A stretch of 64,000 nt of DNA from Bacillota bacterium. GTDB lineage: Bacteria; Bacillota; UBA994. Below the pieces are notes generated by a model. That model saw nothing but the letters and a program-made list of their open reading frames with translations, was not told where the DNA came from and did no database searches. Shown piece by piece: positions 7,854-55,191 of this stretch. Within the stretch, counting starts at the first letter, position 1, and every line of letters begins with the position of its first letter. The position numbers and the translations under genes are program-made. The DNA lies in NCBI GenBank assembly GCA_018333655.1, contig JAGXTJ010000044.1:62001-126000 (forward strand), written 5' to 3'.

Positions 7854-7895
7854 AGACTAAATCATCTGACAAATCATGTGCGAGGTGGGACACCC

Positions 7896-8240
7896 ATGTT
7901 AACAGTTGCCGAACTTAACGAGATCAGATCCCGAGTGAGAAAACAGCTGCGCGTGCGTACCAATGGTTCAGCGGTGAAAGTCATTATTTCTGCTGGGACT
8001 ACGGCTATTGCTGCCGGTTCACGCGCTATTATGGCTGCTGCCCTCGACGAAATTGCTACTAAGGGGCTCTCTACCGTGCAAGTTGAGCAACGTGAAATTG
8101 ATGTCTTAGCAACCGAACAACCAGCGGTCATTATTTTAGCTCATGACGAAGAGATCTTAGTGAAGAACTGCACGCCAGATATGCTGCGTGAGCTCATGCA
8201 AAAAGCCGCGCAACAAAACGGCGAAGTAGCCGATTCCTAA
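7896..8240 (+). CDS. Cysteine-poor thioredoxin-like ferredoxin-fold protein of the hydrogenase operon
   Basis: The 114-residue product resembles the small (2Fe-2S)-ferredoxin-like subunit often encoded between NuoE- and NuoF-like subunits of NAD-linked hydrogenases. The family sequence normally begins with a Cys-containing AGTGC-like loop; here the loop reads VKVIISAGTTAIAAGSRAI and no [2Fe-2S] ligand set survives (a single Cys occurs late, in NCTPDM). It is therefore probably a structural subunit without a cluster. I chose ATG 7896 over GTG 7878 because GAGGTGG (7881-7887) sits 8 nt before it. It is the first gene of the Rex-controlled operon, 21 nt upstream of the NuoF-like gene. Confidence 0.72.
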   Translation: MLTVAELNEIRSRVRKQLRVRTNGSAVKVIISAGTTAIAAGSRAIMAAALDEIATKGLSTVQVEQREIDVLATEQPAVIILAHDEEILVKNCTPDMLRELMQKAAQQNGEVADS

Positions 8241-8261: not shown

Positions 8262-10052
8262 ATGGCCTATATACGCTCTCATGTTCTTGTTTGCGCTGGT
8301 ACCGGCTGTACGTCTTCTGGCTGTAAAGCCGTTGAGAACTCGATGCAGGCTGAAATCGCCAGATTAGGACTCGAAGAAGAAGTAAAGATAGTAGAAACAG
8401 GCTGTTTTGGTTTCTGTAAAATCGGCCCCATCGTCATGGTCTACCCCGAGGGCTCTTTTTACTGCCATGTTAAGCCGGAAGATGCTCCCGAATTAGTGAA
8501 CGAGCATCTCTTGAAGGGGCGCATGGTGGAGCGCTTGCTCTATCGCGACGTGCAAAACCCCAAGCCCACCGCTTTTTTTACTGATATCGACTTTTACAAG
8601 AAGCAGCAGCGCGTAGCTTTGGCTAACTGCGGCTCGATCGACGCGGAGAGCATAGAGGAGTACATCGGGGTGGATGGCTATCAGGCTCTCGCCCAAGTCG
8701 TTACCCAGATGACCCCGGCTGAAGTCATCCATGCTGTTAAGCAATCTGGTTTGCGCGGACGCGGGGGCGGTGGTTTTTCTACCGGTCTCAAGTGGGAGTT
8801 TGCGGCGCGCAGCGCAGGCCCAATTAAGTATGTCGTCTGCAATGCCGACGAAGGCGACCCAGGGGCTTTTATGGACCGCAGTATTCTGGAAGGCGACCCT
8901 CATTCTATTATCGAGGCCATGGCTATCGCTGGCTACGCCATTGGGGCTAGTCAGGGCTATGTGTATGTGCGAGCCGAGTACCCCATAGCGGTAAACCGAC
9001 TGGCTATTGCTATCGAGCACGCGCGCACATTGGGTGTTCTTGGCAGCGGCATCTTCGGCACGAAATTTAACTTTGATCTGTCTATACGCCTAGGCGCGGG
9101 TGCCTTTGTCTGCGGCGAGGAGACGGCTCTCTTGGCCTCTATCGAAGGCAAGCGCGGCATGCCTAAGCCACGTCCTCCTTACCCTGCGGTGCGGGGACTA
9201 TGGGACAAGCCCACACTCATTAACAATGTCGAGACCTTTGCCAATATCCCTAAAATCATTACCAAGGGTCCCGAGTGGTTTTCCGCCATGGGCACGGAGA
9301 AGTCCAAAGGAACCAAGGTCTTTGCCCTTGCCGGCAACATTAATAACACCGGCCTCGTAGAGGTGCCCATGGGCATCACCCTGCGAGAAATAATCTACGA
9401 TATTGGCGGCGGTATCCCCAATAAAAAGGCCTTTAAGGCTTGCCAGACGGGTGGACCTTCGGGCGGTTGCCTGCCCGCGTCTTACTTGGATACCCCCGTT
9501 GATTACGACAACCTTATCGCTGTAGGCTCCATGATGGGCTCTGGCGGACTTATCGTTATGGACGAAAGTAACTGCATGGTCGATGTGGCGCGCTTCTTCT
9601 TGGAGTTTACCCAGGAGGAATCTTGTGGCAAGTGTGTGCCTTGCCGCGAAGGTACGAAGCGCATGCTAGAGATACTAGAGGGTATTACTAAGGGGCATGG
9701 GCAGAGTGGGGACATCGACCTGCTGGAGGAACTTGCCGAGACGATTAAGGGCGCGTCTCTCTGTGGCCTAGGTCAGACGGCTCCTAACCCGGTACTCGCC
9801 ACCCTGCGCTTTTTCCGCGATGAGTTCTTGGCGCATGTTGTGGATAAAAAATGTCCGGCGGGCGTTTGCCAATCTCTCCTGACATACAGCATCATTTCCG
9901 AAAAATGCAAAGGCTGCACTCTGTGCAAGAAGGTTTGTCCTGTAGACGCCATAACCGGCAGCCTCAAGCAAGTGCATGCTATCGACAATGCCAAGTGTAT
10001 TAAGTGTGGCGCCTGTGTACCTAAGTGTCCCTTTAAAGCCATCGTACGCTAG
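8262..10052 (+). CDS. hydB: NAD-linked [FeFe] hydrogenase, NuoF-like beta subunit
   Basis: The 596-residue flavoprotein would exchange electrons between NAD(H) and the hydrogenase iron-sulfur chain. Domains in order: a thioredoxin-like [2Fe-2S] domain (Cys 11, 16, 48, 52), a NuoF FMN/NADH domain (GLRGRGGGGFSTGLKW near 165-180 and CNADEGDPGAF), a [4Fe-4S] site in ESCGKCVPCREGT near 453, and a C-terminal two-cluster ferredoxin (CKGCTLCKKVCP and CIKCGACVPKCP). This architecture matches HydB/HndC of trimeric or tetrameric NAD(P)-dependent, often electron-bifurcating hydrogenases; bifurcation itself cannot be shown from sequence. ATG follows AGGAGGTG. Confidence 0.94.
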   Translation: MAYIRSHVLVCAGTGCTSSGCKAVENSMQAEIARLGLEEEVKIVETGCFGFCKIGPIVMVYPEGSFYCHVKPEDAPELVNEHLLKGRMVERLLYRDVQNPKPTAFFTDIDFYKKQQRVALANCGSIDAESIEEYIGVDGYQALAQVVTQMTPAEVIHAVKQSGLRGRGGGGFSTGLKWEFAARSAGPIKYVVCNADEGDPGAFMDRSILEGDPHSIIEAMAIAGYAIGASQGYVYVRAEYPIAVNRLAIAIEHARTLGVLGSGIFGTKFNFDLSIRLGAGAFVCGEETALLASIEGKRGMPKPRPPYPAVRGLWDKPTLINNVETFANIPKIITKGPEWFSAMGTEKSKGTKVFALAGNINNTGLVEVPMGITLREIIYDIGGGIPNKKAFKACQTGGPSGGCLPASYLDTPVDYDNLIAVGSMMGSGGLIVMDESNCMVDVARFFLEFTQEESCGKCVPCREGTKRMLEILEGITKGHGQSGDIDLLEELAETIKGASLCGLGQTAPNPVLATLRFFRDEFLAHVVDKKCPAGVCQSLLTYSIISEKCKGCTLCKKVCPVDAITGSLKQVHAIDNAKCIKCGACVPKCPFKAIVR

Positions 10053-10072
10053 CCACGGAAAGGAGAATTTGC

Positions 10073-11797
10073 ATGGAACGACTTAAGCTAACTATAGACG
10101 GTACCCCGGTTGAGGTAGACCCCGGTTCCACAGTTCTCGATGCCGCAAGAAAAGCTGGCGTGCATGTTCCCACTTTGTGCTACCATCCTGAACTGCGCCT
10201 AGAGGGTTCCTGCCGCATTTGCGTCGTTGAGATTGAGGGTATGAAGACTCTGGCCGCCTCATGCGTTTATCCCGCCACGAGTGGCATGGTGGTCAGAACG
10301 AATTCTGAAGTGGTGCGCAAAACCCGCAAGTCCATAGTCGAACTTCTACTCGCCAATCATCCCCAAGATTGCCTCGTCTGTACTCGGCACGGCACCTGCG
10401 AGCTACAAGACCTCTCGCATCAGCTCAATGTGCGTAAGATTCGCTTTAAGGGCGAAAAACGCCAGCTAGCACTAGATGAGAGCAGTATCGCCGTCGTGCG
10501 CGACCCCAATAAGTGCATTCTCTGCGGTCGCTGCCTGCGCGTTTGCGAGCATACGCAAAAAGTATCGGCCATTGGTCTCTCCGGCCGCGGCTCGCACTCT
10601 GTCGTCACCACACCCTTTAACCATGGGCTAGCTGAAGGCCCCTGTGTCTCCTGCGGGCAGTGCATTAAAGTGTGCCCGGTAGCGGCCCTGCGTGAAAGAG
10701 ATGCCAGCGAACAAGTATGGAAGGCCTTGGCCAGCAAGAACTTGCATGTTGTCGTGCAGGTAGCCCCTGCTGTGCGCGCTGCCCTAGGCGAAGAGTTTGA
10801 TATGCGCCCCGGCTCCCTGGTTACGGAAAAGATGGTCACGGCTCTGCGCAGACTGGGTTTTGACCAAGTCTTTGACACCCAGTTCGCCGCCGATCTCACG
10901 GTCGTGGAAGAAGGGTACGAACTCCTCTCGCGCCTCGAAAAGAACGAGAATTTGCCGCAAATTAGCTCCTGCAGCCCTGGCTGGGTCCATTACGCTGAGC
11001 TTTTCTTCCCGGAGATGCTGGCTCATGTCTCTACTTGCAAGTCGCCGCAACAGATGTTTGGGGCGGTGGTCAAAACCTACTACGCCGAGCGCAATGGACT
11101 TGACCCCAAGAACATTTTTCATGTCGCTATCATGCCATGCACGGCCAAGAAGTTCGAAGCCAGCCGTAGCGAGATGGGTCGTAACGGAAGCCAGGATGTA
11201 GATGCGGTCCTTACCACTAGGGAACTCGCGTCCATGATTAAAGAAGCAGGCATTGATTTTGCCAACCTGCCGGACAGCGAATTTGACTTGCCGCTGGGTA
11301 TGTCTTCTGGCGCAGGCACCATCTTTGGTGTGACTGGCGGAGTCACCGAGGCAGTGCTACGCACCGTCTACGAGCTTAAGACCGGTAAAGAGCTAGATGA
11401 AGTAGAGTTTCATGCGGTGCGTGGTTTTGGCGGCGTAAGAGAGGCGCAAGTACCCCTCAATGGTTTAACTTTAAAAGTAGCCATTGTTAACTCCTTGGGT
11501 CAAGCAGAGAAAGTTCTGCAAAAGGTTAAGGCTGGGTTGGCGCACTACCACTTTATTGAGATTATGGGCTGCCTGGGCGGCTGTATTGGTGGCGGTGGAC
11601 AGCCCTTTAGCAAGGACGCCGATATCAAACAGAAACGAGCCTCGGCTCTATACCGTCAGGACCACTTAAAGCGTGTGCGCAAGGCCCATGACAATCCGGC
11701 CATTAAGGAGCTCTACCGTACTTTTCTCGGAGAGCCCAACGGACACAAGGCCCACGACCTACTTCACACACATTACCAAGAGCGTCCGCGCTACTAA
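10073..11797 (+). CDS. hydA: [FeFe] hydrogenase catalytic subunit (group A)
   Basis: The 574-residue catalytic subunit evolves or oxidises H2 at an H-cluster. N-terminal domains: a plant-type [2Fe-2S] domain (Cys 36, 47, 50, 64), a His-Cys [4Fe-4S] site (HPQDCLVCTRHGTC, 96-109), and two [4Fe-4S] clusters (CILCGRCLRVC and CVSCGQCIKVC). H-domain motifs: L1 SSCSPGW (298-304), L2 MPCTAKKFE (354-362), L3 EIMGCLGGCIGGGGQP (about 496-511). L1 differs from TSCCPxW: the Cys next to Pro, an H-cluster ligand in the Clostridium pasteurianum enzyme, is Ser. I believe this variant occurs in related NAD-linked enzymes. It lies between hydB and hydC. HydE, HydF and HydG maturases are not in the window. Confidence 0.95.
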   Translation: MERLKLTIDGTPVEVDPGSTVLDAARKAGVHVPTLCYHPELRLEGSCRICVVEIEGMKTLAASCVYPATSGMVVRTNSEVVRKTRKSIVELLLANHPQDCLVCTRHGTCELQDLSHQLNVRKIRFKGEKRQLALDESSIAVVRDPNKCILCGRCLRVCEHTQKVSAIGLSGRGSHSVVTTPFNHGLAEGPCVSCGQCIKVCPVAALRERDASEQVWKALASKNLHVVVQVAPAVRAALGEEFDMRPGSLVTEKMVTALRRLGFDQVFDTQFAADLTVVEEGYELLSRLEKNENLPQISSCSPGWVHYAELFFPEMLAHVSTCKSPQQMFGAVVKTYYAERNGLDPKNIFHVAIMPCTAKKFEASRSEMGRNGSQDVDAVLTTRELASMIKEAGIDFANLPDSEFDLPLGMSSGAGTIFGVTGGVTEAVLRTVYELKTGKELDEVEFHAVRGFGGVREAQVPLNGLTLKVAIVNSLGQAEKVLQKVKAGLAHYHFIEIMGCLGGCIGGGGQPFSKDADIKQKRASALYRQDHLKRVRKAHDNPAIKELYRTFLGEPNGHKAHDLLHTHYQERPRY

Positions 11798-11812
11798 TTG
11801 GGGGTGCAGTAC

Positions 11813-12349
11813 ATGACTTTAGAAAAAAAATGCCACACCTGTCCAGGCTGCGATGGGGCGCGTGATCCTAAGTTTGACGAACTAGACCAAGTCATAGCCG
11901 CACACAAGTCGCTTGAGGGTGCCCTCATCATGATTCTGCATAAAGCGCAGCAGATCTTCGGCTACCTGCCCGAGGAAGTACAGCGCTATGTGGCCAAGAC
12001 ACTTAACATTCCCCTCACCGATGTGTACGGCGTCACTACCTTTTACTCCTACTTCTCTCTCACGCCGCGCGGCAAGTACCGCATTGCCATTTGCATGGGC
12101 ACCGCCTGCTACGTGCGCGGCGCGGGCGAGCTGGTGACGGCCTTTGAGAAGCAACTAGACATTAAAGTCGGCCAGACTACGCCCGATCGTCTCTTTACCC
12201 TCGAAGTATCACGCTGCATAGGGGCCTGCGGTCTCGCCCCCGTACTAACAGTGAACGAGGACGTTTACGGCAATATCGGCGCGGACCGCGTTCCTTCTAT
12301 CATCACCAAGTACCGCGACCGTCAACAAGCTTTAGCGACTGGCAATTAG
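11813..12349 (+). CDS. hydC: NAD-linked [FeFe] hydrogenase, NuoE-like gamma subunit
   Basis: The 178-residue subunit has the NuoE helical bundle at its N-terminus and a thioredoxin-like [2Fe-2S] domain with ligands in CMGTACYVRGA and SRCIGACGLAP. It would relay electrons near the flavin of HydB. The N-terminus also carries CHTCPGC, which is outside the usual cluster set. I chose ATG 11813 with GGGGGTG 7 nt before it, rather than TTG 11798. The order here is small subunit-B-A-C; the more common Clostridial order has the NuoE gene first. The terminator hairpin begins within its last codons. Confidence 0.93.
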   Translation: MTLEKKCHTCPGCDGARDPKFDELDQVIAAHKSLEGALIMILHKAQQIFGYLPEEVQRYVAKTLNIPLTDVYGVTTFYSYFSLTPRGKYRIAICMGTACYVRGAGELVTAFEKQLDIKVGQTTPDRLFTLEVSRCIGACGLAPVLTVNEDVYGNIGADRVPSIITKYRDRQQALATGN

Positions 12350-12363
12350 CCAGTCCTTTTTTT
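12337..12363 (+). terminator. Terminator of the hydBAC operon
   Basis: GACTGGC (12337-12343) pairs perfectly with GCCAGTC (12349-12355) over AATTA and is followed by a run of seven T. The stop codon of hydC lies in the loop. Confidence 0.88.
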
Positions 12364-12377
12364 CTTGCCCACGCCCT

Positions 12378-12407
12378 CTGTCACAATCTTTGTTCTAGAG
12401 CTATAAT
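12378..12407 (+). promoter_or_regulatory. Possible promoter of the hydS operon
   Basis: TATAAT at 12402-12407 is a perfect -10 box; CTGTCA at 12378-12383 is a 4/6 match to -35 at 18-nt spacing. If used, the whole heptamer array at 12446-12704 would lie in a roughly 310-nt 5' leader of the transcript for the small [2Fe-2S] protein, HydS and the phosphatase. Confidence 0.45.
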
Positions 12408-12445
12408 TATAGTAACTCCACCCCTAACTCCCCGCCCCTCTTTTC

Positions 12446-12704
12446 CTGCCTCTTATTTCTTGCCTCTATCTTCCTGCCTCTTATTTCTTGCCTCTATCTT
12501 CTTGCTTCTATTCTCTTGCTTCCTGCTTCTTGCTTCTTGCCTCTATCTTCTTGCTTCTATTCTCTTGCCTCTTGCTTCTATTCTCTTGCTTCTTATCTCT
12601 TGCCTCTTGCTTCTTGCTTCTATTCTCTTGCCTCTTGCTTCTATTCTCTTGCCTCTTGCTTCTTGCTTCTATTCTCTTGCTTCTTGCTTCTTGCTTCTAT
12701 TCTC
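12446..12704 (+). repeat. Heptanucleotide tandem array 1 (37 units, all-pyrimidine except scattered G and A)
   Basis: The 259 bp divide without remainder into 37 consecutive 7-mers. The commonest are TTGCTTC, TATTCTC, TTGCCTC and TATCTTC, with CTGCCTC, TTATTTC, CTGCTTC and TTATCTC as variants; every unit ends in TC. Because 7 is not a multiple of 3, all three forward frames stay open with the same 7-residue periodicity (Leu-Ala-Ser-Cys-Phe type), which creates spurious leucine-rich ORFs. It fills almost all of the 375 nt between hydC and the next gene and ends 20 nt before the ATG at 12725. I see nothing protein-coding here. Confidence 0.95.
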
Positions 12705-12724
12705 TTGAACCGGGGTGTTGCACT

Positions 12725-12970
12725 ATGCGCGTTATAACATTATGCGTCGGTAGCTCCTGCTACCTGCGCGGTGCCCACAAAGTTGCCGAGGCTATTGAGC
12801 ACTTTATTACCAGGCACGGCCTCGCTGCCCAGGTGGAATTACAAGGGCACTTTTGTCTCAACCGTTGTTTAGAAGGTGTGGCCGCCGACCTCGACGGGCA
12901 CCCTTTGCCGCGCCTTACTCCTGCTAATACGGCAGATATAATGGCTCTGTACATGCTAAAGGAGGCGTAA
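12725..12970 (+). CDS. Small thioredoxin-like [2Fe-2S] ferredoxin
   Basis: The 81-residue product matches the C-terminal domain of NuoE/HydC: ligand pairs CVGSSC (Cys 7 and 12) and CLNRC (Cys 44 and 48). It lacks the NuoE N-terminal bundle. The open frame continues upstream through the heptamer array, but ATG 12725, preceded by GGGGTG, gives a protein that starts exactly at the domain. It ends 2 nt before hydS, so the two are almost certainly cotranslated, and it is a plausible electron partner or cluster donor for HydS. Confidence 0.85.
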   Translation: MRVITLCVGSSCYLRGAHKVAEAIEHFITRHGLAAQVELQGHFCLNRCLEGVAADLDGHPLPRLTPANTADIMALYMLKEA

Positions 12971-12972
12971 GC

Positions 12973-14607
12973 GTGGGAGCAATACAAGTACGACAAGGTT
13001 ATTGTAAGAGCTGCTATGCCTGTATCCGCGCCTGCGAAGTAAAGGCCACCTCTATACGCCGTGGCCAGGCTTCCATAATTGACGATGACTGCTTGTCTTG
13101 CGGCGAATGCCTCGCCCACTGTCCGCAGAAGGCTCGCGAAATTCGTAGCGACATAGAGGTTGTACGCAATTTGCTCAAAGGAGTCACGCCCTTGTGGGCC
13201 AGCCTTGCACCCGCAGCCGCGGTGGGCAAGTACACTCTGCTGGAATGGGAGACTAGGCTTATGCGGGCAGGTTTCGCCGGTGTCAGCCTTACGAGCTGGG
13301 GGGCAGTGCCAGTCGCCGCCGCCTACAACGAAGCCGCTCTACGCGAGGGCTGGGTGCTTACGACCGCCTGTCCTGCCGCGGTCAAACTTGTCTGCCGTTT
13401 TTTCCCTACGCTTACCTCGCATCTCGCCCCTGTGGCCTCGCCCATGCTCACCCATGCCGCCTGGCTTAAGGAGACCCATAAGGCCAAAGTGGTCTTCATT
13501 GGCCCTTGCGCCGCCAAAAAGACGGAGGCCCAAGGCAGTACGCACATGGCTGCAGCCCTCACTTTCGCTGAGGTGTTGCCTTTGTTGGCAGAGACTTCAC
13601 CTGCAGTTGACCGCGAGCATGCCAGCCTCTCTTTTTCTGCGCAAGGGCTGATGCACTTTCCTGTACCGGCGGGGCTCGCGTCGGCAGTCGATGTTCCGGT
13701 GCTGGCAGTTGACGGCGTTAGCGATCTATGGGGTTTTTTGCGGCGCGTGGAAAGGGGAGAGACGACTCCGCGAGGCATTGTCGAGATGTCTGCCTGTCGC
13801 GGTTCCTGCCTAGGGGGGCCGGCCGCTTTTTGCCGCGACCTCACGCTCTCGGAGCGCCGCGCCATGCTGGTTACTTTGCCTGAGGGGCGAGTACATAGCG
13901 CCCTGCCCCTACGCAGACACTTCTTGCCCCAGCCAGTTTTGCGCAACACGCCTAGCGACGCCGCCGTGGCCGATGTGCTTAACCTCTTAGGTAAAGCAGA
14001 CAAAGCGACAGAGTATAACTGCGGTGCTTGCGGCTACCATACTTGCCGTGACAAGGCCCTTGCGGTGGTAAATGGCCGTGCAGAGCTTGAGATGTGCCTT
14101 CCCTACATGCGTACTAAGGCGGAGTCTCTGGCCAATCTTATCCTCGCCTCTACACCGAATGCCGTCATCTTAGTGGACAGAGAACTGCATATTAGGGAGT
14201 GGAATGCCGCGGCGGAGCGCCTGTTTGGCATTCCGGAGGCACATGCGCTTCATAGAAATATCGCCGATTTTCTTCCCGCCGAAGACTATGCGGCTCTCTT
14301 TGCAAATTCTTTTTCTATACCGGGCAAAAAAATTAGCGTTATCCCGGGTGTAGTCACTCTTTTCACCGCCTCCTTGGTCAAGGGTGGTGAGTTAGCCATG
14401 GGCATCTATACAGACATCACCCGTCTTGAGGAGCAGGGTCAAGCCCTGCTTAAAGTGAGGCAAGAAACCATTGAGCGCGCGCAAGAAGTAATTAACAAGC
14501 AAATGCGCGTCGCGCAGGAGATAGCGAGCCTCTTAGGCGAGACCACGGCCGAGAGTAAAGTATTGCTCCTAAAACTGATGAAGGTAGTGCAGGGCGACGC
14601 CAAATGA
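12973..14607 (+). CDS. hydS: Sensory [FeFe] hydrogenase HydS with PAS domain (group C-like)
   Basis: The 544-residue protein has two N-terminal [4Fe-4S] clusters (Cys 11, 14, 17, 21 and 40, 43, 46, 50) and an H-domain with L1 TTACPAA (Cys-133), L2 IGPCAAKKTEA (Cys-179) and L3 EMSACRGSCLGG (Cys-275, Cys-279). A four-Cys Fe-S domain follows (350, 353, 358, 375), then a PAS domain (about 385-500) and a C-terminal helix. The L1 residue that shuttles protons in catalytic enzymes (Cys-299 of C. pasteurianum) is Ala-132, as in described HydS proteins, so a sensing role fits better than turnover. The GTG start at 12973 follows AGGAGG. The phosphatase gene overlaps its 3' end by 4 nt, as expected of a signalling pair. 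Confidence 0.9.
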   Translation: MGAIQVRQGYCKSCYACIRACEVKATSIRRGQASIIDDDCLSCGECLAHCPQKAREIRSDIEVVRNLLKGVTPLWASLAPAAAVGKYTLLEWETRLMRAGFAGVSLTSWGAVPVAAAYNEAALREGWVLTTACPAAVKLVCRFFPTLTSHLAPVASPMLTHAAWLKETHKAKVVFIGPCAAKKTEAQGSTHMAAALTFAEVLPLLAETSPAVDREHASLSFSAQGLMHFPVPAGLASAVDVPVLAVDGVSDLWGFLRRVERGETTPRGIVEMSACRGSCLGGPAAFCRDLTLSERRAMLVTLPEGRVHSALPLRRHFLPQPVLRNTPSDAAVADVLNLLGKADKATEYNCGACGYHTCRDKALAVVNGRAELEMCLPYMRTKAESLANLILASTPNAVILVDRELHIREWNAAAERLFGIPEAHALHRNIADFLPAEDYAALFANSFSIPGKKISVIPGVVTLFTASLVKGGELAMGIYTDITRLEEQGQALLKVRQETIERAQEVINKQMRVAQEIASLLGETTAESKVLLLKLMKVVQGDAK

Positions 14608-15773
14608 GTCTCTACTTCGAGACCTTTTCGCGACAACTTCACAAGTGGGGTGAGGAGCTGTGTGGCGACCATGTCGAAATCGTCCGCACCCCCGAGAACA
14701 TCATTATTACCCTCGCCGATGGTCTTGGTAGCGGGGTAAAAGCCAATATTCTCTCTACACTGACGACAAAAATAGCCGCCTCCATGCTTAAAGAAGGCGT
14801 GCACTTTGATGAAGTGATCTCCACCATGGCCGCGACCCTGCCGGTATGTAGTCAGCGCGGTGTGGCGTACTCCACCCTGACGATTTGTCAGATAAAGCCC
14901 AGTGGAGAATGCTACCTGGCCGAATTTGATAGCCCCGAGGCCATTTTTCTGCGGCGGGGAGAGTCACTGCTGCTGCCGCGCCATGAGCGCCTCGTCTTTG
15001 GCAAAGCCATTTTTGAGAGCCACTTTAACTTGCAACAAGGGGATACGGTGCTCTTTATCTCCGATGGCGTGATTCATGCCGGCATTGGCACGAGTCTTAA
15101 CATGGGCTGGCGCCTAGCGAATGTGGCCGCCTATGTCGCCAACCTGGCCCGCAAGAACACTAGTTTGCGCGGTATGGTCAGCTCGTTGGCTAACACTTGC
15201 CATCATCTCTATGCCGGCCGACCAGGTGATGACGCGACTATCGTCGGTCTTCGCGCTGGCTTGCCCAAGCACCTGGCGCTACTTACGGGTCCGCCACAAA
15301 ACATGGCCCTTGACGACATGGTCGTCGACCGTTTCATGTCTCTAGCGGCCATCAAAGTGATTTGTGGGGGAACAACGGCACAAATGGTCGCCCGACGCCT
15401 AAATGTGACTGTGTCGACGGCCATTAGCACTATGGACGAAGACGTACCACCTATCGCTACTATGCCCGGCATAGACCTGGTCACTGAAGGGATGCTCACC
15501 CTTACCGCCGCGCTCGCCATCATACGCAGCTTCGCCCTAGCGCAGGGGGACCTCTCAGACAGTAAGTTGCTCAAAAATAAGGATGGCGCGTCGCGCCTAG
15601 CCGATCTCCTCATGAACCACTGCACACATGTGCTGCTTCTCGTGGGCTGTGCGGTCAATGCCGCGCATATCGAGCACTTAGCGCCACAACTCGGCTTACG
15701 CCGCCAACTCACCACTGACTTGGCGCATTACTTGCGCTTGCTCGGCAAAGAAGTGGTAGTGGAATATTTTTAA
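14604..15773 (+). CDS. PP2C/SpoIIE-type serine phosphatase with unrecognised C-terminal domain
   Basis: Residues 1-220 form a PP2C/SpoIIE-like phosphatase domain: metal-binding Asp in LADGLGSGVKA (Asp-39), ISDGV (Asp-154) and GDDATIVGL (Asp-209, Asp-210). Residues 222-389 form a second region beginning KVICGGTTAQMVARRLNV that I do not recognise; it looks alpha/beta with conserved-looking Gly-rich turns. Such phosphatases dephosphorylate Ser/Thr on partners such as STAS anti-anti-sigma factors. The 4-nt overlap with hydS says that the sensor controls this enzyme or is controlled by it. The substrate is not identifiable in this operon. Confidence 0.85.
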   Translation: MSLYFETFSRQLHKWGEELCGDHVEIVRTPENIIITLADGLGSGVKANILSTLTTKIAASMLKEGVHFDEVISTMAATLPVCSQRGVAYSTLTICQIKPSGECYLAEFDSPEAIFLRRGESLLLPRHERLVFGKAIFESHFNLQQGDTVLFISDGVIHAGIGTSLNMGWRLANVAAYVANLARKNTSLRGMVSSLANTCHHLYAGRPGDDATIVGLRAGLPKHLALLTGPPQNMALDDMVVDRFMSLAAIKVICGGTTAQMVARRLNVTVSTAISTMDEDVPPIATMPGIDLVTEGMLTLTAALAIIRSFALAQGDLSDSKLLKNKDGASRLADLLMNHCTHVLLLVGCAVNAAHIEHLAPQLGLRRQLTTDLAHYLRLLGKEVVVEYF

Positions 15774-18384: not shown

Positions 18385-19281
18385 GTGGACAAGACACCAA
18401 GCAGTGAATGGACTAGCCTCCTTAGGTATATGCCGTCTTCCTGGCACGAAGTACTGAGCCCGCTGTTGTTTTTCGAACTACGTGTGCGGGTGGACAAACC
18501 ACTGCAAATCGTGGCGAGAGGTGGAGAGAGACTGCTACCCCTAACGGCCACAAGTCGAGACATTAAGCACCTGGTGGCTGCTTTCTCGCAGAGTTCGCTT
18601 TATGCCTTTGAAGAGGAACTCAAGCAGGGCTACATAACACTGCCGGGTGGGCATCGCGTGGGATTTGCCGGCAAGGTGCTGCAGGACGGCGCGGGCAAAG
18701 TGAGAGGGCTAAAAGACATATCGTCCCTATGTTTGCGCGTGGCGCGCACTGTGCCGGGTTGTGCCGACCGCTTGCTGTCCTCTTTGCTCGACCCAGGGGG
18801 GGTGCCCTACCACACCTTACTAATTTCTCCACCACAAGGTGGCAAGACAACAATGCTGCGGGATATTGTGCGGCAAGTGAGCGATGGCGGCCAGCGCGTG
18901 TGTGTGGTAGATGAACGCTCAGAAATCGCTGGCTGCTACCAAGGAAGGCCGCAGTTAGATGTGGGTAGGAGGACTGATGTTCTAGATGCCTGCCCCAAGG
19001 CCCAGGGCATGTTGATGGCTCTGCGCGCTCTATCGCCTAATGTACTCGTCACCGACGAAGTAGGGCGCGCCGAAGACGTAGCGGCCATTGAAGAGGCCCT
19101 AAATGCCGGGGTACGGGTGCTGGCCACCGCGCATGGTGCCAATTTGGGTGATGTAGCGCGACGCCCACAATTAGCGCCGCTCATGGGGAGAAATTTGTTC
19201 CAGAGGGTGGTCATCATGAGTACCCGCTGTGGCCCTGGCACTGTTGAGTATGTTGGCGAGCCCTTGTCAGCAGGATGTTAG
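18385..19281 (+). CDS. spoIIIAA: Stage III sporulation protein AA, secretion-type ATPase
   Basis: The 298-residue product is a PilT/GspE-like ATPase of the mother cell that powers or gates the SpoIIIA-SpoIIQ channel needed for SigG activity in the engulfed forespore. Walker A reads SPPQGGKTTMLRDI near residue 153, and the Walker B-like VLVTDEVGRAEDV lies near 215. An N-terminal domain of about 130 residues precedes the ATPase core. The GTG start at 18385 begins the eight-gene spoIIIA operon. It overlaps spoIIIAB by 7 nt. Confidence 0.96.
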   Translation: MDKTPSSEWTSLLRYMPSSWHEVLSPLLFFELRVRVDKPLQIVARGGERLLPLTATSRDIKHLVAAFSQSSLYAFEEELKQGYITLPGGHRVGFAGKVLQDGAGKVRGLKDISSLCLRVARTVPGCADRLLSSLLDPGGVPYHTLLISPPQGGKTTMLRDIVRQVSDGGQRVCVVDERSEIAGCYQGRPQLDVGRRTDVLDACPKAQGMLMALRALSPNVLVTDEVGRAEDVAAIEEALNAGVRVLATAHGANLGDVARRPQLAPLMGRNLFQRVVIMSTRCGPGTVEYVGEPLSAGC

Positions 19282-19805
19282 ACCTAAGATTTATCTTAAG
19301 CGTGGCCTGCTTTGGCTTGGTTCTTTCTGGCTCGGCCATGATCGGCTTTGGCATCGCCAAAAATTATGCCGATCGTCCTCGGCAGCTGCAGAGCCTTCGC
19401 ACCGGCGTGGAAATGCTGCTGACTGAGATCGTCTATGCGGCTACACCATTGTCTGAAGCCTTAAGCGGGGTGGGCAAAACGCAGGCCCAACCTATCGCCG
19501 AGTTTTTTGCCGAGGTGGGTACTGGCATTTCTGAGATGATGACCGTAAATGAGGCCTGGGCCAGGGGGCTAGAAGGCCTGCAGTTTTCTTCGGCCTTACT
19601 ACTGCCTGATCTCGAAGTGCTGCGTTCCCTAGGGGAGGTCCTCGGCGTGAGCAGTAGAGAAGACCAAGAGCGACACTTGCTCTTAGCCTGCCAGCGGCTG
19701 CACGCCCTGCATGTAGCCGCAACAGATGAAGCCAGCCGCAATGTGCGCATGTGGCGGTATCTTGGGTTTCTCATTGGGGTGGTCGTCGTTATCATCATCT
19801 TGTAG
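19275..19805 (+). CDS. spoIIIAB: Stage III sporulation protein AB
   Basis: The 176-residue membrane protein has a helix at each end (about 5-25 and 157-176) and a cytoplasmic helical region with LQSLRTGVEMLLTEIVY. The fold resembles type II secretion GspF fragments. It belongs to the mother-cell side of the SpoIIIA complex. Start ATG 19275 lies inside the end of spoIIIAA. Confidence 0.94.
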   Translation: MLDLRFILSVACFGLVLSGSAMIGFGIAKNYADRPRQLQSLRTGVEMLLTEIVYAATPLSEALSGVGKTQAQPIAEFFAEVGTGISEMMTVNEAWARGLEGLQFSSALLLPDLEVLRSLGEVLGVSSREDQERHLLLACQRLHALHVAATDEASRNVRMWRYLGFLIGVVVVIIIL

Positions 19806-19819
19806 TGGGGGGGTCCTAT

Positions 19820-20020
19820 ATGGAGATGAACTTTAGAGACATGATGCAAATGACAGCCTTTTTGCTAGCTTTAGGGATTATCTATAATCTGCTCTACAAT
19901 TGGGACCGCAAAGAGTCAGCAGGGCTGGTGATGATAACGGGCGTAGTAATGGTTCTCACCTACTTGGTGTACCAGGTGGTGGCCCTGTTTCGGGCCATAC
20001 AAACACTGATGCACTTCTAA
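19820..20020 (+). CDS. spoIIIAC: Stage III sporulation protein AC
   Basis: The 66-residue protein has two membrane helices (about 12-28 and 36-60) joined by NWDRKESAG, the family's hallmark. I use ATG 19820, after GGGGGGG; a longer frame from 19751 overlaps spoIIIAB and is not conserved. It is part of the SpoIIIA channel. Confidence 0.94.
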   Translation: MEMNFRDMMQMTAFLLALGIIYNLLYNWDRKESAGLVMITGVVMVLTYLVYQVVALFRAIQTLMHF

Positions 20021-20021
20021 A

Positions 20022-20408
20022 ATGGGTATCTTTCATTTTGTGATTTTAGCGGTGGCAGTGTCGATGGCGACCTTGATCTTAAAACAGTTCCGACCTGAAC
20101 TAGGACTAGTCCTCGTAGTGGTGGCCTCGGTGGCGCTGATGATGACACTACTAAGTCGCATGGCGGTGGTCATGGCGCTAGTTGAAGAAGTAGCGCAAAG
20201 GGCGGATATTGGGAGCCTACATCTTAACACAATTTTTAGGATTATGGGGGTTGCCTTTGTGGCTGAATTTGGAGCTATGCTCTGCAAAGATGCCGGCGAG
20301 AACGCTCTCTCCGCCAAGGTGGAGCTGGCCGGCAAGCTGATTATCCTTGGTCTGTCGGTACCCTTGGTGCTAGTGATACTAGAGACTTTGTTGCGGCTGA
20401 TTCCCTGA
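20022..20408 (+). CDS. spoIIIAD: Stage III sporulation protein AD
   Basis: The 128-residue product has about four membrane helices and the conserved loop VAFVAEFGAMLCKDAGENALSAKVELAGK. It forms the channel base with AC and AE. It starts one base after the spoIIIAC stop, with no clear ribosome site of its own, so translation is probably coupled. Confidence 0.95.
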   Translation: MGIFHFVILAVAVSMATLILKQFRPELGLVLVVVASVALMMTLLSRMAVVMALVEEVAQRADIGSLHLNTIFRIMGVAFVAEFGAMLCKDAGENALSAKVELAGKLIILGLSVPLVLVILETLLRLIP

Positions 20409-20415
20409 GGTAGAA

Positions 20416-21603
20416 ATGAGACGGATAAAGATACTTTTAGGCGTCGTGTTGACCTTGCTACTACTACTGTGCCTAGCTCCACAGGCCCACGGCTCGGAGC
20501 AAGCAGGTGGGCTAGAACTTGACGCCGTACTCAATCAACAACTGCGTGAACTCAATTTGCACTCTTTCGAAGAGGTGCTGCGCGATGTGGAAGAAGAGTA
20601 TGCGGGGTTTGTTCCTGAGCTTACTATAGAGGGTCTGACTTTGGGCTTGGGGGGCAGTGGGGGGCTGAACCCGCGCCAAGTGCTTATCAACTTAAGCCGT
20701 TTTGCATTGGGGGAAGTATCGCGGCAAACTTCTCTTCTCGGGAGGATTATTGTTGTAGCGATGCTCTGCGTGCTGATGAAAAAAATGCAGGACAGTTTTG
20801 GGGGCAGCGTCGGCAATGCCGCCTATGGCGTCTGTTTTTTAGTGCTAGTGGGCGTCGTTTTGCAGAGTTTCTCTCTACTGACCCGCGAGGTGATGAATGC
20901 GGTAGAGCTTATGATAAGCCTTCTTTATAGCTTGCTACCAGTTCTGTTATCACTCCTAGTGTCGCTAGGTGCCGCAGGTTCGGCGGCGCTCTTTCATCCG
21001 CTAGTCGCGGCAACAGCGACGACTGTCAGCACAGTGGTCAGGAATTTAGTGATACCACTTATTTATTTCGCGGGGATTCTCACTTTGCTTAATGCTCTAT
21101 CCGATAAAGTGCAGGTCAGCAAACTAGCCAGTCTACTAAAAGACTTGAGTATCGCCATTCTCGGCATTTCCTTTACCGTCTTTGTCGGTCTCAGTGTGGT
21201 GCAGGGCACGGCTGCTGGTGTGGCCGATGGCATTGCTCTGCGCACGGCGAAATATGCAGTGAAAAACTTTATTCCTGTAGTGGGTGGTTTGTTCGCCGAC
21301 GTTTTTGAAACGGTGGCCGGGGCTTCGCTGCTCCTTAAGAACGGGATCGGTATAACTGGTCTACTTGCTGTGTTTATCCTGTGCGCTATGCCGGCTCTTA
21401 AAGTATTAGTCGTAGTCTTTATTTACCGCCTGGCTGCAGCCATTATCCAGCCCATGGGTGTTACCCCGGTGGCCGAGGCCTTGAGCAATTTGGCAAGCAT
21501 ACTCACCGTGTTGGCAGGGGCGCTCATTACGGTGGGTATCATGTTCTTTATATTGATTACCATCGTTATTGGCGCGGGCAATGCTACGTTATCAATTAGG
21601 TGA
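20416..21603 (+). CDS. spoIIIAE: Stage III sporulation protein AE
   Basis: The 395-residue polytopic protein begins with a cleavable-looking signal (residues 1-26, ending AQAHG), followed by an extracytoplasmic segment and about seven membrane helices. The central loop ALRTAKYAVKNFIPVVGG is typical of the family. Its start is 7 nt after spoIIIAD. Confidence 0.95.
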   Translation: MRRIKILLGVVLTLLLLLCLAPQAHGSEQAGGLELDAVLNQQLRELNLHSFEEVLRDVEEEYAGFVPELTIEGLTLGLGGSGGLNPRQVLINLSRFALGEVSRQTSLLGRIIVVAMLCVLMKKMQDSFGGSVGNAAYGVCFLVLVGVVLQSFSLLTREVMNAVELMISLLYSLLPVLLSLLVSLGAAGSAALFHPLVAATATTVSTVVRNLVIPLIYFAGILTLLNALSDKVQVSKLASLLKDLSIAILGISFTVFVGLSVVQGTAAGVADGIALRTAKYAVKNFIPVVGGLFADVFETVAGASLLLKNGIGITGLLAVFILCAMPALKVLVVVFIYRLAAAIIQPMGVTPVAEALSNLASILTVLAGALITVGIMFFILITIVIGAGNATLSIR

Positions 21604-21614
21604 GGGGCAGAAGC

Positions 21615-22151
21615 ATGATGGAGTTTTTGCGCCTGTGGGTGCAGGATATTGTGGTGTTACTAGTTTTGGCCCTGGTAGTAGATATGGCGCTGCCTAGTGG
21701 GCCGCAAAAGCGCTATGTCGATTACGCACTGGGTTTGATGTTGTTGCTGCTTCTTTTGAACCCAGTCAAGCACATTTTAGACAATGAACTGAATGTAGCT
21801 GCCATGCTAGCCCAGGCGGAGGCGGAAAGCGACAGGAGGCTTATGGTCCATGAACCACTCTCGGCCCAATCGACCTGGCTGACTTACAGAATGATACTGG
21901 AGGACCGTATCTCGGAACTGGCGGCAGAGCATAAGGAGGTCATCACCGCGCAAGCGGAAGTGAGCCTTGAACAAGCAGAGGGGAGCGCTAATTTTGGCCG
22001 TCCGACCGCTATTTTGCTGACTATACAGGTGCATGCCAGTGTTTTGCCGGGCGGGGCAGAGGAGGCACACTTAAACAGCGACATCAAGGAGCGACTGGCT
22101 GAGGTCTACGGCATAGAACAGGCTCACATAGCCATAGAATTTACCAGATAG
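21615..22151 (+). CDS. spoIIIAF: Stage III sporulation protein AF
   Basis: The 178-residue protein has two N-terminal membrane helices (about 6-24 and 35-52, with PSGPQKRYVDYALGL between) and an extracytoplasmic ring-building-like domain. I use ATG 21615, since AGGGGC lies 6 nt upstream; GTG 21600 would overlap spoIIIAE. Confidence 0.93.
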   Translation: MMEFLRLWVQDIVVLLVLALVVDMALPSGPQKRYVDYALGLMLLLLLLNPVKHILDNELNVAAMLAQAEAESDRRLMVHEPLSAQSTWLTYRMILEDRISELAAEHKEVITAQAEVSLEQAEGSANFGRPTAILLTIQVHASVLPGGAEEAHLNSDIKERLAEVYGIEQAHIAIEFTR

Positions 22152-33181: not shown

Positions 33182-33218
33182 CCCAGCCCCGCTCTAAACA
33201 GTCTTCTCCTCTTGATCC

Positions 33219-33407
33219 TTGTTTCTCGTTTCTTTCTTCCTGCTTCCTGCCTCCTGTTTCCTGTCTCCTGTTTCCTGCTTCTTGCCTCTTGTTTCTTTCT
33301 TCCTGTTTCTTGTTTCTTGCCTCTTGTTTCCTGTTTCTTGCTTCCTGTTTCTTTCTTCCTGTTTCTTGCCTCCTGCTTCTTGCCTCTTGTTTCTTGTTTC
33401 TCACTTC
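33219..33407 (+). repeat. Heptanucleotide tandem array 2 (27 units)
   Basis: The 189 bp divide exactly into 27 seven-mers, mostly YTGYYTC: CTGTTTC, TTGTTTC, TTGCCTC, CTGCTTC, TTGCTTC, CTGCCTC, with TTTCTTC, CTGTCTC, TCGTTTC and TCACTTC as variants. A degenerate TTGATCC precedes it. It fills most of the 244 nt between nadK and recN and ends 19 nt before the recN ATG. Open frames through it on both strands are an artefact of the 7-nt period. Confidence 0.95.
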
Positions 33408-52349: not shown

Positions 52350-53525
52350 TTGTCACAGCGGCATATCCTGGCAGTCGTCGCGATTTTGTGTCTCTGTCTT
52401 ATTCCTATCCCCGTTGTCGAGGCCACAGCCACAAATCGAAGCCTCCCTGCGATGGCGTTGTCGGAGGCCCTCCGGGTTCCACAGGCGCTATTGATGGATA
52501 TGGGAACGGGCACCATTCTCTTGGCGAAGGACGAGCATCAACAGAGGCCTATTGCCAGTCTGACCAAAATTATGACCAAGCTCTTGGTCTTAGAAGCGAT
52601 AGAAGCAAATCGCATCACATGGGATGATCAGGTGCGCATTAGTAGCCACGCACGCCAGTACGGAGGCTCGCAAATTTGGCTGGAAGAGGGCGAAGTTCTT
52701 ACCGTCGAGCAGCTGTTTTTGGCTGTGGCAGTAGTCTCGGCCAATGATGCCGCGGTAGCCCTGTCAGAGTTTATTGCCGGCAGTGAGGTAGGCTTTGTTG
52801 CCCTTATGAATGAAAGAGCGCGTGGGCTAGGAATGACCAACACCAATTTTACCAGCGCTTGTGGACTCGACATCGGTCAGCCCTTCTCCTCAGCTTACGA
52901 TGTAGCTCTGATGACGCGCGCCTTACTTAAGCATGAGAGAGTGCACGACTTTGTCAGTATCAGGGTAACTCACCTCGAACGGGCGCGCGTGCGCAGTATG
53001 CTCGCTAATACCAATCGCCATCTCCTGGCCACCTACCCAGGTTATGACGGTCTTAAGACCGGCTGGACAACGAAAGCTGGTTGGTGTTTGTCTGCGACAG
53101 CTAAGCGCGGCCAACTGCGTCTAATTGCCATCGTTCTAGGTGGAAACACCCCGGCAGAGCGCAACAGCGATATAGTGCAACTCCTAGATTATGGCTTCGC
53201 CACTTACGAGGGGAAGCGCGTCGTGGAAAAGGGCCAAGAAGTAGGCCTCGCTCGGGTACAAAAAGGTCAGACGGAGCAAGTGAAGCTTTATGCTGCAGAC
53301 TACTTGGATATTATTTTTCCTAAGGGCCAGAAGAGCGCCTGGGAGCAGAAAACCGAATTCTTCGCTGTGGAGGCGCCAGTGGCTGCGGGTCAGATTATGG
53401 GTAGACTGACGATCCTTCAGGACGGCAAGGTTGTAAGACAAGTTGACTTAATGGCGGCAGAGAATGTACCTCGCGCTTCGGCCTTTCTTTTCTTTAACCG
53501 ACTATGGCGCCGCTTACTGCGCTAG
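52350..53525 (+). CDS. dacF: D-alanyl-D-alanine carboxypeptidase DacF
   Basis: The 391-residue S11 penicillin-binding protein has a signal peptide (1-26) and S70-L-T-K73, S-A-N near 130 and KTG in GLKTGWTTKAG. It lies immediately before spoIIAA as in Bacillus, where dacF is read through into spoIIA. TTG 52350 lies after GAGGAGG. The C-terminal helix ends SAFLFFNRLWRRLLR. Confidence 0.94.
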   Translation: MSQRHILAVVAILCLCLIPIPVVEATATNRSLPAMALSEALRVPQALLMDMGTGTILLAKDEHQQRPIASLTKIMTKLLVLEAIEANRITWDDQVRISSHARQYGGSQIWLEEGEVLTVEQLFLAVAVVSANDAAVALSEFIAGSEVGFVALMNERARGLGMTNTNFTSACGLDIGQPFSSAYDVALMTRALLKHERVHDFVSIRVTHLERARVRSMLANTNRHLLATYPGYDGLKTGWTTKAGWCLSATAKRGQLRLIAIVLGGNTPAERNSDIVQLLDYGFATYEGKRVVEKGQEVGLARVQKGQTEQVKLYAADYLDIIFPKGQKSAWEQKTEFFAVEAPVAAGQIMGRLTILQDGKVVRQVDLMAAENVPRASAFLFFNRLWRRLLR

Positions 53526-53541
53526 CTACAAACTACCGCAT

Positions 53542-53562
53542 CCCCCATTTTGGGGGTTTTTT
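53542..53562 (+). terminator. Terminator after dacF
   Basis: CCCCC (53542-53546) pairs with GGGGG (53552-53556), loop ATTTT, then six T. Confidence 0.8.
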
Positions 53563-53572
53563 CTTTGTTGCG

Positions 53573-53601
53573 GCAGGATTTGTTTGCCAAGGAGAGAATC
53601 C
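53573..53601 (+). promoter_or_regulatory. Sigma-H promoter of the spoIIA operon
   Basis: GCAGGATTT (53573-53581) fits RnAGGAwWW fully; after 11 nt AGAGAATCC (53593-53601) holds the GAAT core of RnnGAATww. The spacing is canonical and the start would fall about 20 nt before the spoIIAA ATG, just upstream of its ribosome site GGGAGG. Bacillus spoIIA uses sigma-H with Spo0A~P. No clear Spo0A box is seen. Confidence 0.75.
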
Positions 53602-53625
53602 CATAGCAAAGGGAGGTTGACGTTA

Positions 53626-53967
53626 ATGGAGATTGATTTGAGATACCGCGGTAATGTCTTAGTGGTGACACTGAAAGGTGAGTTAGACCACCACGCCGCC
53701 GACAAACTGCGGCAGCTGGTGGAAAAAGAGCTGGACAAGGAGATAGCCATCCATCTTTTGTTCAATTTGCCCGGTCTTACTTTTATGGATAGCTCTGGCT
53801 TAGGCGTCATACTAGGTCGCTACCGGAGGGTTAATGCTGCGGGTGGCAAAGTAGGTGCCTGCTCGTTGCACCCATATATAGAGCGGTTGTACCAAATGGC
53901 AGGGCTACCTCGCATTATCCCGGTCTATGAATCCGAAGAGGCGGCGCTCGTTTCACTGAAGAGATAG
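53626..53967 (+). CDS. spoIIAA: Anti-sigma-F factor antagonist SpoIIAA
   Basis: The 113-residue STAS protein, when unphosphorylated, releases SigF from SpoIIAB. The phosphorylation loop TFMDSSGLGVILGRY (Ser-56/57) is intact. ATG 53626 after GGGAGG is chosen; the open frame upstream runs into the dacF end. It is also a possible substrate type for SpoIIE-like phosphatases such as the one beside hydS, but its own partner is normally SpoIIE. Confidence 0.96.
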   Translation: MEIDLRYRGNVLVVTLKGELDHHAADKLRQLVEKELDKEIAIHLLFNLPGLTFMDSSGLGVILGRYRRVNAAGGKVGACSLHPYIERLYQMAGLPRIIPVYESEEAALVSLKR

Positions 53968-53987
53968 CTGAGAAATGGGGGAAAAAA

Positions 53988-54419
53988 ATGGAAAATTGGT
54001 TCGAGCTGCGCCTGCCTGCGCTGTCACAAAACGAAAAGTTTGCGCGCACTACAGCTGCTCTTTTTGCTCTTCAGGCGGGTGACTGGTCACTAGTAGAGAT
54101 AAATGAAATCAAAACGGCAGTGTCAGAAGCGGTGACTAATGCCATTATTCATGGCTACCATGAGTGCTGCGGCGAAATTATAGTAAGTGGCACAGTGGCA
54201 GCGGGTGTTGTGGAATTTACTATCTCTGATGCCGGACAGGGCATTGCTGATGTAGAGACAGCCCGTCAACCGTTATTTACAACCAAACCTGAGCACGAAC
54301 GCAGCGGTCTTGGGTTTACGGTCATGGAGAATTTCATGGATGAGGTAGAGATAGACTCAACACTTGGGCAGGGGACTAAGGTGAAGATGACTAAGTACCT
54401 CCTGCGTAAAGTACAATAG
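53988..54419 (+). CDS. spoIIAB: Anti-sigma-F factor and serine kinase SpoIIAB
   Basis: The 143-residue GHKL kinase binds SigF and phosphorylates SpoIIAA. N box AVSEAVTNAIIHGY, D box SDAGQGIADVE and G box RSGLGFTVMENFMD are present. It lies 20 nt after spoIIAA and 7 nt before sigF. Confidence 0.96.
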   Translation: MENWFELRLPALSQNEKFARTTAALFALQAGDWSLVEINEIKTAVSEAVTNAIIHGYHECCGEIIVSGTVAAGVVEFTISDAGQGIADVETARQPLFTTKPEHERSGLGFTVMENFMDEVEIDSTLGQGTKVKMTKYLLRKVQ

Positions 54420-54426
54420 AGCCGTA

Positions 54427-55191
54427 ATGAGCACGATAAACGCCAAGAAGGTAGCCAGTGGTCCCGTGCTGAGCGAAGCTGATACACAAGCACACTTGCG
54501 TAGTCTTCGCGCTGGAGATAAGTCAGTCCGTGAGAAAATGCTCCTAGGTCACGCACGTCTCGTGTATTCGCTCGTGACTCGTTTTTTAAACAGTGGACAC
54601 GATCCCGAAGACCTCTTTCAAATTGGCTGTATCGGCCTCTTGAAGGCCATAGACAGATTTGATCTTAATATCGGGGTGAGATTCTCTACCTATGCCGTTC
54701 CCCTGATCATCGGGGAGATTCGCCGCTTTTTGCGCGATGACGGGCCTATAAAAGTGTCGCGTTCTATCAAGGAGACGGCACATCGAGTGCGAAAATGTAG
54801 CGAAACATTACGGGCCGAACTGGGTAGGGATGCCCGTCTTAGCGAAATCGCCGCCTCGCTCGAGTTAAATGAAGAAGAGATTGTCTCGGCATTGCTTGCT
54901 ATGCGCCCCATGGCTTCATTGGAAGAGAAGATATCTTCGTCCGACAGTAACTCTATGTACTTGGTTGACTGTCTTAAACTAGAGGAACCGGTGCAAGAGG
55001 CAGTAGTGGAGAACATCGCCCTGCAACAGCTAATGGCCAGTCTGTCGCCCAAGGAACAGCGTATTATTACCGCTAGGTACTTCGAAAACAGGACGCAGTC
55101 TCAAGTGGCTAGTGAGCTCGGTGTTAGTCAAGTGCAGATTTCGCGCTTAGAAAAAGCAATTTTAGCTCGCTTGCGCCGGCTCCTCGACTAG
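54427..55191 (+). CDS. sigF: RNA polymerase sigma-F factor
   Basis: The 254-residue forespore sigma factor has region 2 (GHDPEDLFQIGCIGLLKAID, FSTYAVPLIIGEIRRFLRDD), region 3 and region 4 (TQSQVASELGVSQVQISRLE). It drives early forespore genes after release from SpoIIAB. Length and order are normal. The spoVA genes follow about 0.5 kb on. Confidence 0.97.
   Translation: MSTINAKKVASGPVLSEADTQAHLRSLRAGDKSVREKMLLGHARLVYSLVTRFLNSGHDPEDLFQIGCIGLLKAIDRFDLNIGVRFSTYAVPLIIGEIRRFLRDDGPIKVSRSIKETAHRVRKCSETLRAELGRDARLSEIAASLELNEEEIVSALLAMRPMASLEEKISSSDSNSMYLVDCLKLEEPVQEAVVENIALQQLMASLSPKEQRIITARYFENRTQSQVASELGVSQVQISRLEKAILARLRRLLD

Follow-up and report, generated by a model that had tools for sequence, protein, structure and literature searches.

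Organization of the locus and cofactor sites of HydS

The window analyzed here, a stretch of 64,000 nucleotides from a Bacillota bacterium of the UBA994 lineage (assembly GCA_018333655.1, contig JAGXTJ010000044.1, positions 62,001 to 126,000), carries on its forward strand three closely packed genes, which we consider rather likely to form an H2/redox signalling module of group C3 (M2f), with the sensor HydS switching a protein phosphatase. The first gene encodes a free-standing [2Fe-2S] protein of 81 residues (12725-12970, from the ATG at 12725 to a stop ending at 12970), the second is hydS (12973-14607; 544 residues, GTG start, with AGGAGG at 12960-12965), and the third encodes a SpoIIE/RsbU-type PP2C phosphatase of 389 residues (14604-15773, ATG at 14604). 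The open reading frame coordinates agree with the initial annotation, which had described a three-gene module with a gap of 2 nucleotides between the small gene and hydS, and an overlap of 4 nucleotides (ATGA) between hydS and the phosphatase gene.

HydS gave Pfam matches to PF02906, PF04060, PAS and Fer4. The four residues named earlier as H-cluster ligands, Cys133 (codon 13369-13371), Cys179 (13507-13509), Cys275 (13795-13797) and Cys279 (13807-13809), are invariant in an alignment of 74 HydS proteins. The additional Fe-S sites and the PAS domain, on which the likeness to group C sensory hydrogenases had been based, were recovered as well: the ferredoxin cysteines of two N-terminal [4Fe-4S] sites are present; a Cx2Cx4Cx16C [4Fe-4S] site (Cys350, 353, 358 and 375; 14020-14097; PF04060), with all four cysteines invariant, lies between the H-domain and the PAS domain; and the latter spans about residues 386-485 (14128-14427; PF00989, E value 4e-10, over cut-off), in agreement with the structure model. 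This AlphaFold2 model (pLDDT 90) predicts an [FeFe]-hydrogenase fold, followed by the PAS domain, a long helix (residues 483-521) and a further helix (526-540). In a CpI-numbered comparison, Ala132 occupies the C299 position, bearing out the reported replacement of the proton-shuttle Cys by Ala; of the other group A proton-pathway residues, E279 and S319 are likewise replaced by Ala, Glu is found at E282, and the equivalents of K358 and E361 are kept. The CpI sequence behind this numbering agrees with PDB chain 1c4a_A in length (574 residues) and with the published numbering of the ligands.

In phylogenetic analysis, HydS was placed apart from group A and HydA2, the window-type proteins forming a long-branched subclade, and H-domain identity within the HydS clade was 58-70%. 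The notion that HydS is a hydrogenase fossil was rejected in view of this identity, together with the kept ligands and K358/E361 equivalents. The HydDB classification includes group C3, the 'phosphatase-linked (putative)' [FeFe] hydrogenases (PMC5037454), and HydS is assigned to this known group (M2f) of putative H2 sensors by its sequence features. In common with the C3/M2f HydS of Thermotoga maritima (TmHydS), it has the H-cluster ligands, two [4Fe-4S] sites, the Cx2Cx4Cx16C motif, a PAS domain and a linked phosphatase (PMC5037454, PMC10055695). Moreover, its second-sphere residues at the CpI C299/M353/M497 positions (A/G/S) are those of TmHydS A131, G177 and S267 (PMC10055695), whereas a Phe stands at the position of TmHydS Y223 (CpI F417). 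The pairing of HydS with a phosphatase, which the initial annotation described as noted before, is already known as HydDB group C3 (PMC5037454). As a separate observation, the HydS of one relative (L020, 3-1498; G003:C131) is split across two reading frames, either through a real frameshift or through an assembly error.

Close to its C-terminus, HydS has a near-invariant helical segment (residues 506-535; 14488-14577), whose mean majority-residue frequency in the 74-protein alignment is 0.85, compared to values of 0.53 in the H-domain and 0.44 in the PAS domain. Significant matches to the C-terminal segment were found in HydS only (16 genomes). Judged from this conservation, the helix is likely to be the contact with the phosphatase.

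A PP2C phosphatase with a C-terminal domain of its own

The identification of the gene overlapping hydS as a PP2C phosphatase holds, as its product matches PF07228 over cut-off (E value 5e-19) and possesses the full set of metal-binding residues, D22, D39, D154, D209 and D210, invariant in 61 relatives. The structure model (pLDDT 90) has its closest folds among SpoIIE/RsbU-type phosphatases. RsbU, RsbP and SpoIIE are partner-switching regulators that carry a regulatory N-terminus, the input of RsbP being a PAS domain and a coiled coil. An N-terminal regulatory region was looked for in the phosphatase of the window and is absent, the PP2C fold beginning in the model with its first strand at residue 4; in agreement, the GD motif lies at residues 20-24 in 59 of the 61 relatives. 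PP2C fold and metal ligands are common to the three regulators and the present protein, and the PAS and coiled-coil input resembles that of RsbP; here, however, the sensor is a chain of its own, the phosphatase lacks an input segment at its N-terminus and carries an additional domain at its C-terminus, and no STAS gene lies nearby. A fused HydS-phosphatase gene was not found among the loci examined.

The extra alpha/beta domain comprises about 165 residues (222-389; 15267-15770) with near-invariant loops. It occurs only on this phosphatase family (61 genomes), and searches gave no credible Pfam match (noise only) or PDB sequence match. A sugar-isomerase (SIS) fold, weakly hinted at by an E value of 0.06, found no support in profile comparison, and neither did DeoRC, the probabilities being 0.3 and 2%, respectively, with very thin comparison profiles.

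Linkage of the three genes across genomes

The conservation of the module was evaluated across 91 loci with the phosphatase: besides the window, these comprise 80 on named genome contigs and 10 retrieved by genome searches, of which two duplicate the contigs of L023 and L024. These loci were picked by phosphatase similarity, so that the linkage count speaks for this phosphatase family: HydS is encoded directly upstream, on the same strand, in 91 of 91, mostly with overlaps of 4 or 1 nucleotides, a linkage far above chance. A free-standing small [2Fe-2S] gene was present upstream in 73 of the 77 loci with enough flanking sequence; altogether 18 of the 91 loci are without one, 14 of them with truncated or short flanks. 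Addition of six further loci raised the number with enough upstream sequence to 83, of which 75 have the free small gene and three (L044, L056, L084) have no copy in either form; in the other five (L078, L103-L106), the neighbouring HydA carries the corresponding domain as a C-terminal fusion.

The small protein matches PF01257 over cut-off, and its Cys 7, 12, 44 and 48 are invariant in 62 relatives. The stand-alone [2Fe-2S] protein 2 nucleotides before hydS had been called NuoE-type, and of this description the second part did not stand, the protein being closer to the C-terminal domain of HydA than to NuoE/HydC. The best PDB match of its family profile was the C-terminal domain of T. maritima HydA (residues 571-638, E value 7e-15), the best HydC/NuoE match having an E value of 2e-11. 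In trees built on only 83 columns, the free proteins, including that of the window, and the HydA-fused domains, including that of T. maritima, fell on one side of a branch with support of 97/93, and NuoE C-terminal, HydB N-terminal and HydA2-linked domains on the other. On this sequence evidence, the small protein is assigned as a free-standing form of the HydA C-terminal 'A5' [2Fe-2S] domain, and not as a generic NuoE. In the T. maritima enzyme, this domain holds cluster A5, located more than 30 Å from every other cluster (PDB 7P5H; PMC9499530); it is missing from the other characterized bifurcating HydA proteins, and was judged as perhaps not crucial for bifurcation (PMC9499530). The window copy belongs to the same family and clade as the T. 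maritima domain, but it stands free instead of forming the tail of HydA (PDB 7P5H; PMC9499530).

A domain of the A5 type, free or fused to the adjacent HydA, was present in 80 of the 83 loci. HydA-fused copies occur in 12 loci, the seven beyond the five replacements being mostly found beside a free copy. Among 61 related genomes, 24 have A5-type domains, called at 55 bits or more (the next matches reaching at most 47); 23 of these also have the phosphatase, and in the 24th HydS is cut by a contig end, so that A5-type domains are found only in genomes with the HydS module. A phosphatase sequence was detected in three of the 37 genomes without an A5 domain, namely at a contig end (G012), as a copy without HydS that has lost conserved PP2C residues (G019), and in fragmented form (G043). 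The second of these (L216, 1587-2726) looks decayed, its conserved CG and GSGVKAN residues being lost, and the third (L220, 907-1514) consists of phosphatase fragments only. HydA-A5 fusions were found in ten genomes from nine families, all of them with the module (p 6e-5, a value inflated by shared ancestry).

Pairwise identities also correlate between the three proteins (HydS and phosphatase, r 0.71; HydS and small protein, 0.61; phosphatase and small protein, 0.52), which fits a co-inherited unit and is no proof of contact. In T. maritima, the case in which A5 is known structurally, hydS shares an operon with another hydrogenase (PMC10055695). As regards the hfsABCD cluster of Thermoanaerobacterium and the HydS/HydA2 cluster of Ruminococcus albus, the order of HydS followed by the phosphatase is common to all, whereas the module of the window adjoins HydABC and not HydA2 (PMC5707799, PMC11837493, PMC6776011). 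Judged by gene order alone, the small protein is probably HfsA of Thermoanaerobacterium; no locus of this genus was among those retrieved for a comparison with the HfsA sequence.

While the pair of sensor and phosphatase was known, the linkage in 91 of 91 loci of the phosphatase family, the identity of the small protein as an A5 domain and its near-constant presence, the HydS C-terminal helix and the phosphatase C-terminal domain appear to be new. No description of this combination, in terms of small protein, helix and phosphatase domain, was found in a literature search that left most subscription journals outside its reach.

Candidate outputs of the signal

The level of H2 sets the fermentation products of anaerobes (ethanol versus acetate and H2), in the rumen as well as in biofuel strains, and a review from 2024 described the signal transduction of sensory [FeFe] hydrogenases as unknown (PMC11376134). 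STAS proteins had been put forward as targets of the phosphatase, which now appears doubtful: a search of the organism's own genome with PF01740 and PF13466 detected SpoIIAA only, and a STAS output is weakened because this is the sole such protein detected. Furthermore, no STAS or HATPase gene recurs beside the module in 80 loci, the neighbourhoods thus lacking the arrangement of a partner-switching system. HATPase_c_2 proteins over cut-off number three in the genome (SpoIIAB, an ATPase of locus L010 described below, and one in a frame of 614 residues), and Hanks-type kinases one.

In other lineages, a gene for an APH/RIO-type kinase adjoins the module in six loci, upstream of the small gene in L077, L080, L085, L094 and L097, and at 2724-3551 in L093; in L085, L094 and L097 it sits between adhE and the small gene. 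Such a kinase may possibly oppose the phosphatase. The adhE gene itself, full or partial, lies upstream of the module in five loci. Thermoanaerobacterium saccharolyticum responds to deletion of either hfsA or hfsB with higher adhE transcript levels and more ethanol, hfsC and hfsD being needed (PMC5707799). In R. albus, a cluster with a group C hydrogenase and a phosphatase is subject to H2-dependent regulation, with a 111-fold drop in co-culture (PMC6776011). Given the adhE neighbours and these phenotypes of T. saccharolyticum and R. albus, a target in fermentation is our best guess for the phosphatase.

Proposed mechanism and alternative explanations

Based on the above, we propose that the H-cluster of HydS, set in a protein without the standard proton pathway, would read H2 or H2-linked redox poise, instead of supporting fast H2 turnover. 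Changes of state at the H-cluster and the Cx2Cx4Cx16C [4Fe-4S] site would then be relayed to the PAS domain and to the coiled coil that follows it. By docking in trans, the near-invariant helix at the C-terminus of HydS would switch the PP2C protein, which is presumably translated together with HydS. HydS and phosphatase would thereby correspond to RsbP (PAS, coiled coil, PP2C) split into two chains, a resemblance drawn from the phosphatase being without a regulatory N-terminus. Once switched, the phosphatase may dephosphorylate a Ser/Thr phosphoprotein governing fermentation and hydrogenase genes, while the small [2Fe-2S] protein would couple the sensor to the catalytic hydrogenase, either as an electron tap or as a dock. 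The decayed phosphatase in the genome that has no HydS is in favour of this proposal, as is the presence of HydF; since HydF is encoded in the genome, H-clusters can presumably be matured.

Several observations weigh on the other side. The identity correlations between chains also reflect shared descent. The helix core at residues 506-535 was delimited post hoc on the alignment, the wider region 486-544 scoring 0.64 and the FeS domain 0.69. The C299 position varies among the 74 HydS proteins (Ala in 30, Cys in 28, Ser in 8), so Ala132 is no hallmark of sensing. In addition, the genes next to the module in the window include neither a cognate kinase nor a substrate.

In a different reading, the sensor uses its FeS clusters and the [2Fe-2S] protein to follow the redox poise of the cell (reduced ferredoxin or NADH), with the H-cluster as a mere electron outlet and H2 not the primary signal. 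Four FeS sites besides the H-cluster are indeed invariant in HydS and the small protein, the latter is a member of the thioredoxin-like [2Fe-2S] family of proteins working with NADH-linked complexes, and rex, identified by Pfam, lies within the hydrogenase gene cluster. Nevertheless, retention of all four H-cluster ligands, together with the K358 and E361 equivalents, goes beyond the needs of an outlet, and T. maritima HydS does bind an H-cluster, with slow turnover of H2 (PMC10055695), so that we regard this reading as unlikely. The small protein could also be a subunit of the catalytic HydABC enzyme unrelated to sensing, found near hydS through the shared locus only; it shares homology with a domain of HydA and, as described above, occurs fused to HydA in 12 loci. 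However, the small gene precedes hydS even where the adjacent HydA is a HydA2 without A5 domain (e.g., L032, L035, L041), fused and free copies occur together in L033, L036, L052, L062 and L071, and an A5-tailed HydA was found in none of 35 genomes without the module. We regard a purely catalytic subunit as rather unlikely.

Finally, the phosphatase might act on SpoIIAA and couple H2 to sporulation. SpoIIAA (within the open reading frame 53464-53967), SpoIIAB (53988-54419) and a sigma factor are all encoded in the window, SpoIIAA being the lone STAS candidate, and the phosphatase fold is SpoIIE-like. Yet the genome already has a SpoIIE-like frame of 846 residues (C2:53812), related modules have published phenotypes in fermentation (PMC5707799, PMC6776011), and it is the APH/RIO-type kinase, and no STAS gene, that adjoins the module in some lineages; a sporulation target is thus very improbable.

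Returning to the small protein as a coupling element of the H2/redox module, we tentatively suggest that the electronically isolated A5 cluster of bifurcating HydA might serve signalling and not bifurcation. Either free or as a tail of HydA, the domain might dock on HydS and relay either electrons from H2 or the redox state of the enzyme to the switch formed by HydS and the phosphatase. Hydrogenase and sensor would then form one wired unit, with the phosphatase and its extra C-terminal domain as output. The small protein also hints at a place for the A5 cluster of T. maritima HydA, and its kinship with the HydA domain suggests a coupling between enzyme and sensor. Overall, the problem of signal transduction is narrowed to testable parts: one HydS helix, one phosphatase family, one phosphatase domain and one small [2Fe-2S] protein.

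Genomic context of the module

Upstream of the module, the same strand encodes a catalytic NAD(H)-linked hydrogenase, with hydB (8262-10052; Pfam), hydA (10073-11797; NF040763 over cut-off, and Pfam) and hydC/nuoE (11798-12349; Pfam). The module had been described as sitting directly after this hydrogenase; the two are adjacent, but an intrinsic terminator, a promoter-like site and a repeat intervene. The terminator (12337-12362, or 12337-12355 in a narrower delimitation), directly 3' of hydC/nuoE, has a 7-bp stem and a T run, with a folding z-score of -3.3. The promoter-like site, CTGTCA-18-TATAAT (12378-12407, forward strand), is weakly supported, such sites being no commoner here than expected by chance. 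The third element is a polypyrimidine repeat of about 265 bp at 12442-12707, between hydC and the HydS module. Altogether, the module adjoins hydBAC but is probably no simple extension of its transcript. The repeat is one of two degenerate intergenic arrays in the window, the other lying at 33210-33401, with units of 7, 14 and 21 nucleotides (e.g., TCTTGCT); it lengthens the space between hydC and the module by about 250 nucleotides relative to the nearest relatives (L023, L111), in which the gap between nuoE and the small gene is only about 120 nucleotides.

Two further loci, with HydS and a HydS-like protein respectively, were found in the same genome. About 36 kb away, on the opposite strand, a second complete module (L009) has the order small [2Fe-2S] gene, HydS2, phosphatase, second [2Fe-2S] gene and HydA2, which is that of hfsABCD. 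A third locus (L010) encodes a PAS-less HydS-like protein (9478-11244) beside a HATPase of 147 residues, DRTGG and PHP proteins and a second HydABC. With no PAS domain and a histidine-kinase-like ATPase as neighbour, this protein resembles the M2e HydS of Thermoanaerobacter mathranii (PMC8163306), from which the HydS of the window differs in having a PAS domain and a phosphatase instead. The L010 locus may possibly represent a kinase-linked H2 sensor, the third in the genome.

With regard to the catalytic subunits, the HydA proteins of the window (10073-11797), L010 (3395-5212), L023 and L024 read SSCSPGW, with Cys at CpI position 299 and Ser at 300, the position held to be an H-cluster ligand. 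Acetobacterium woodii HydA1 also aligns with Ser at 300, and Cys-Cys was found at 299/300 in 19 of the 21 neighbouring HydA proteins scored. An open reading frame of 120 residues between rex and hydB (7878-8240) is a relative, at 44 bits, of the thioredoxin-like [2Fe-2S] protein encoded at L010; it has a single Cys, and is therefore probably without a cluster. The window also contains a spoIIAA-spoIIAB-sigma factor operon (53464-55191) and a spoIIIA-like gene run (at about 18385-22151), which together suggest that the source organism is a spore former.

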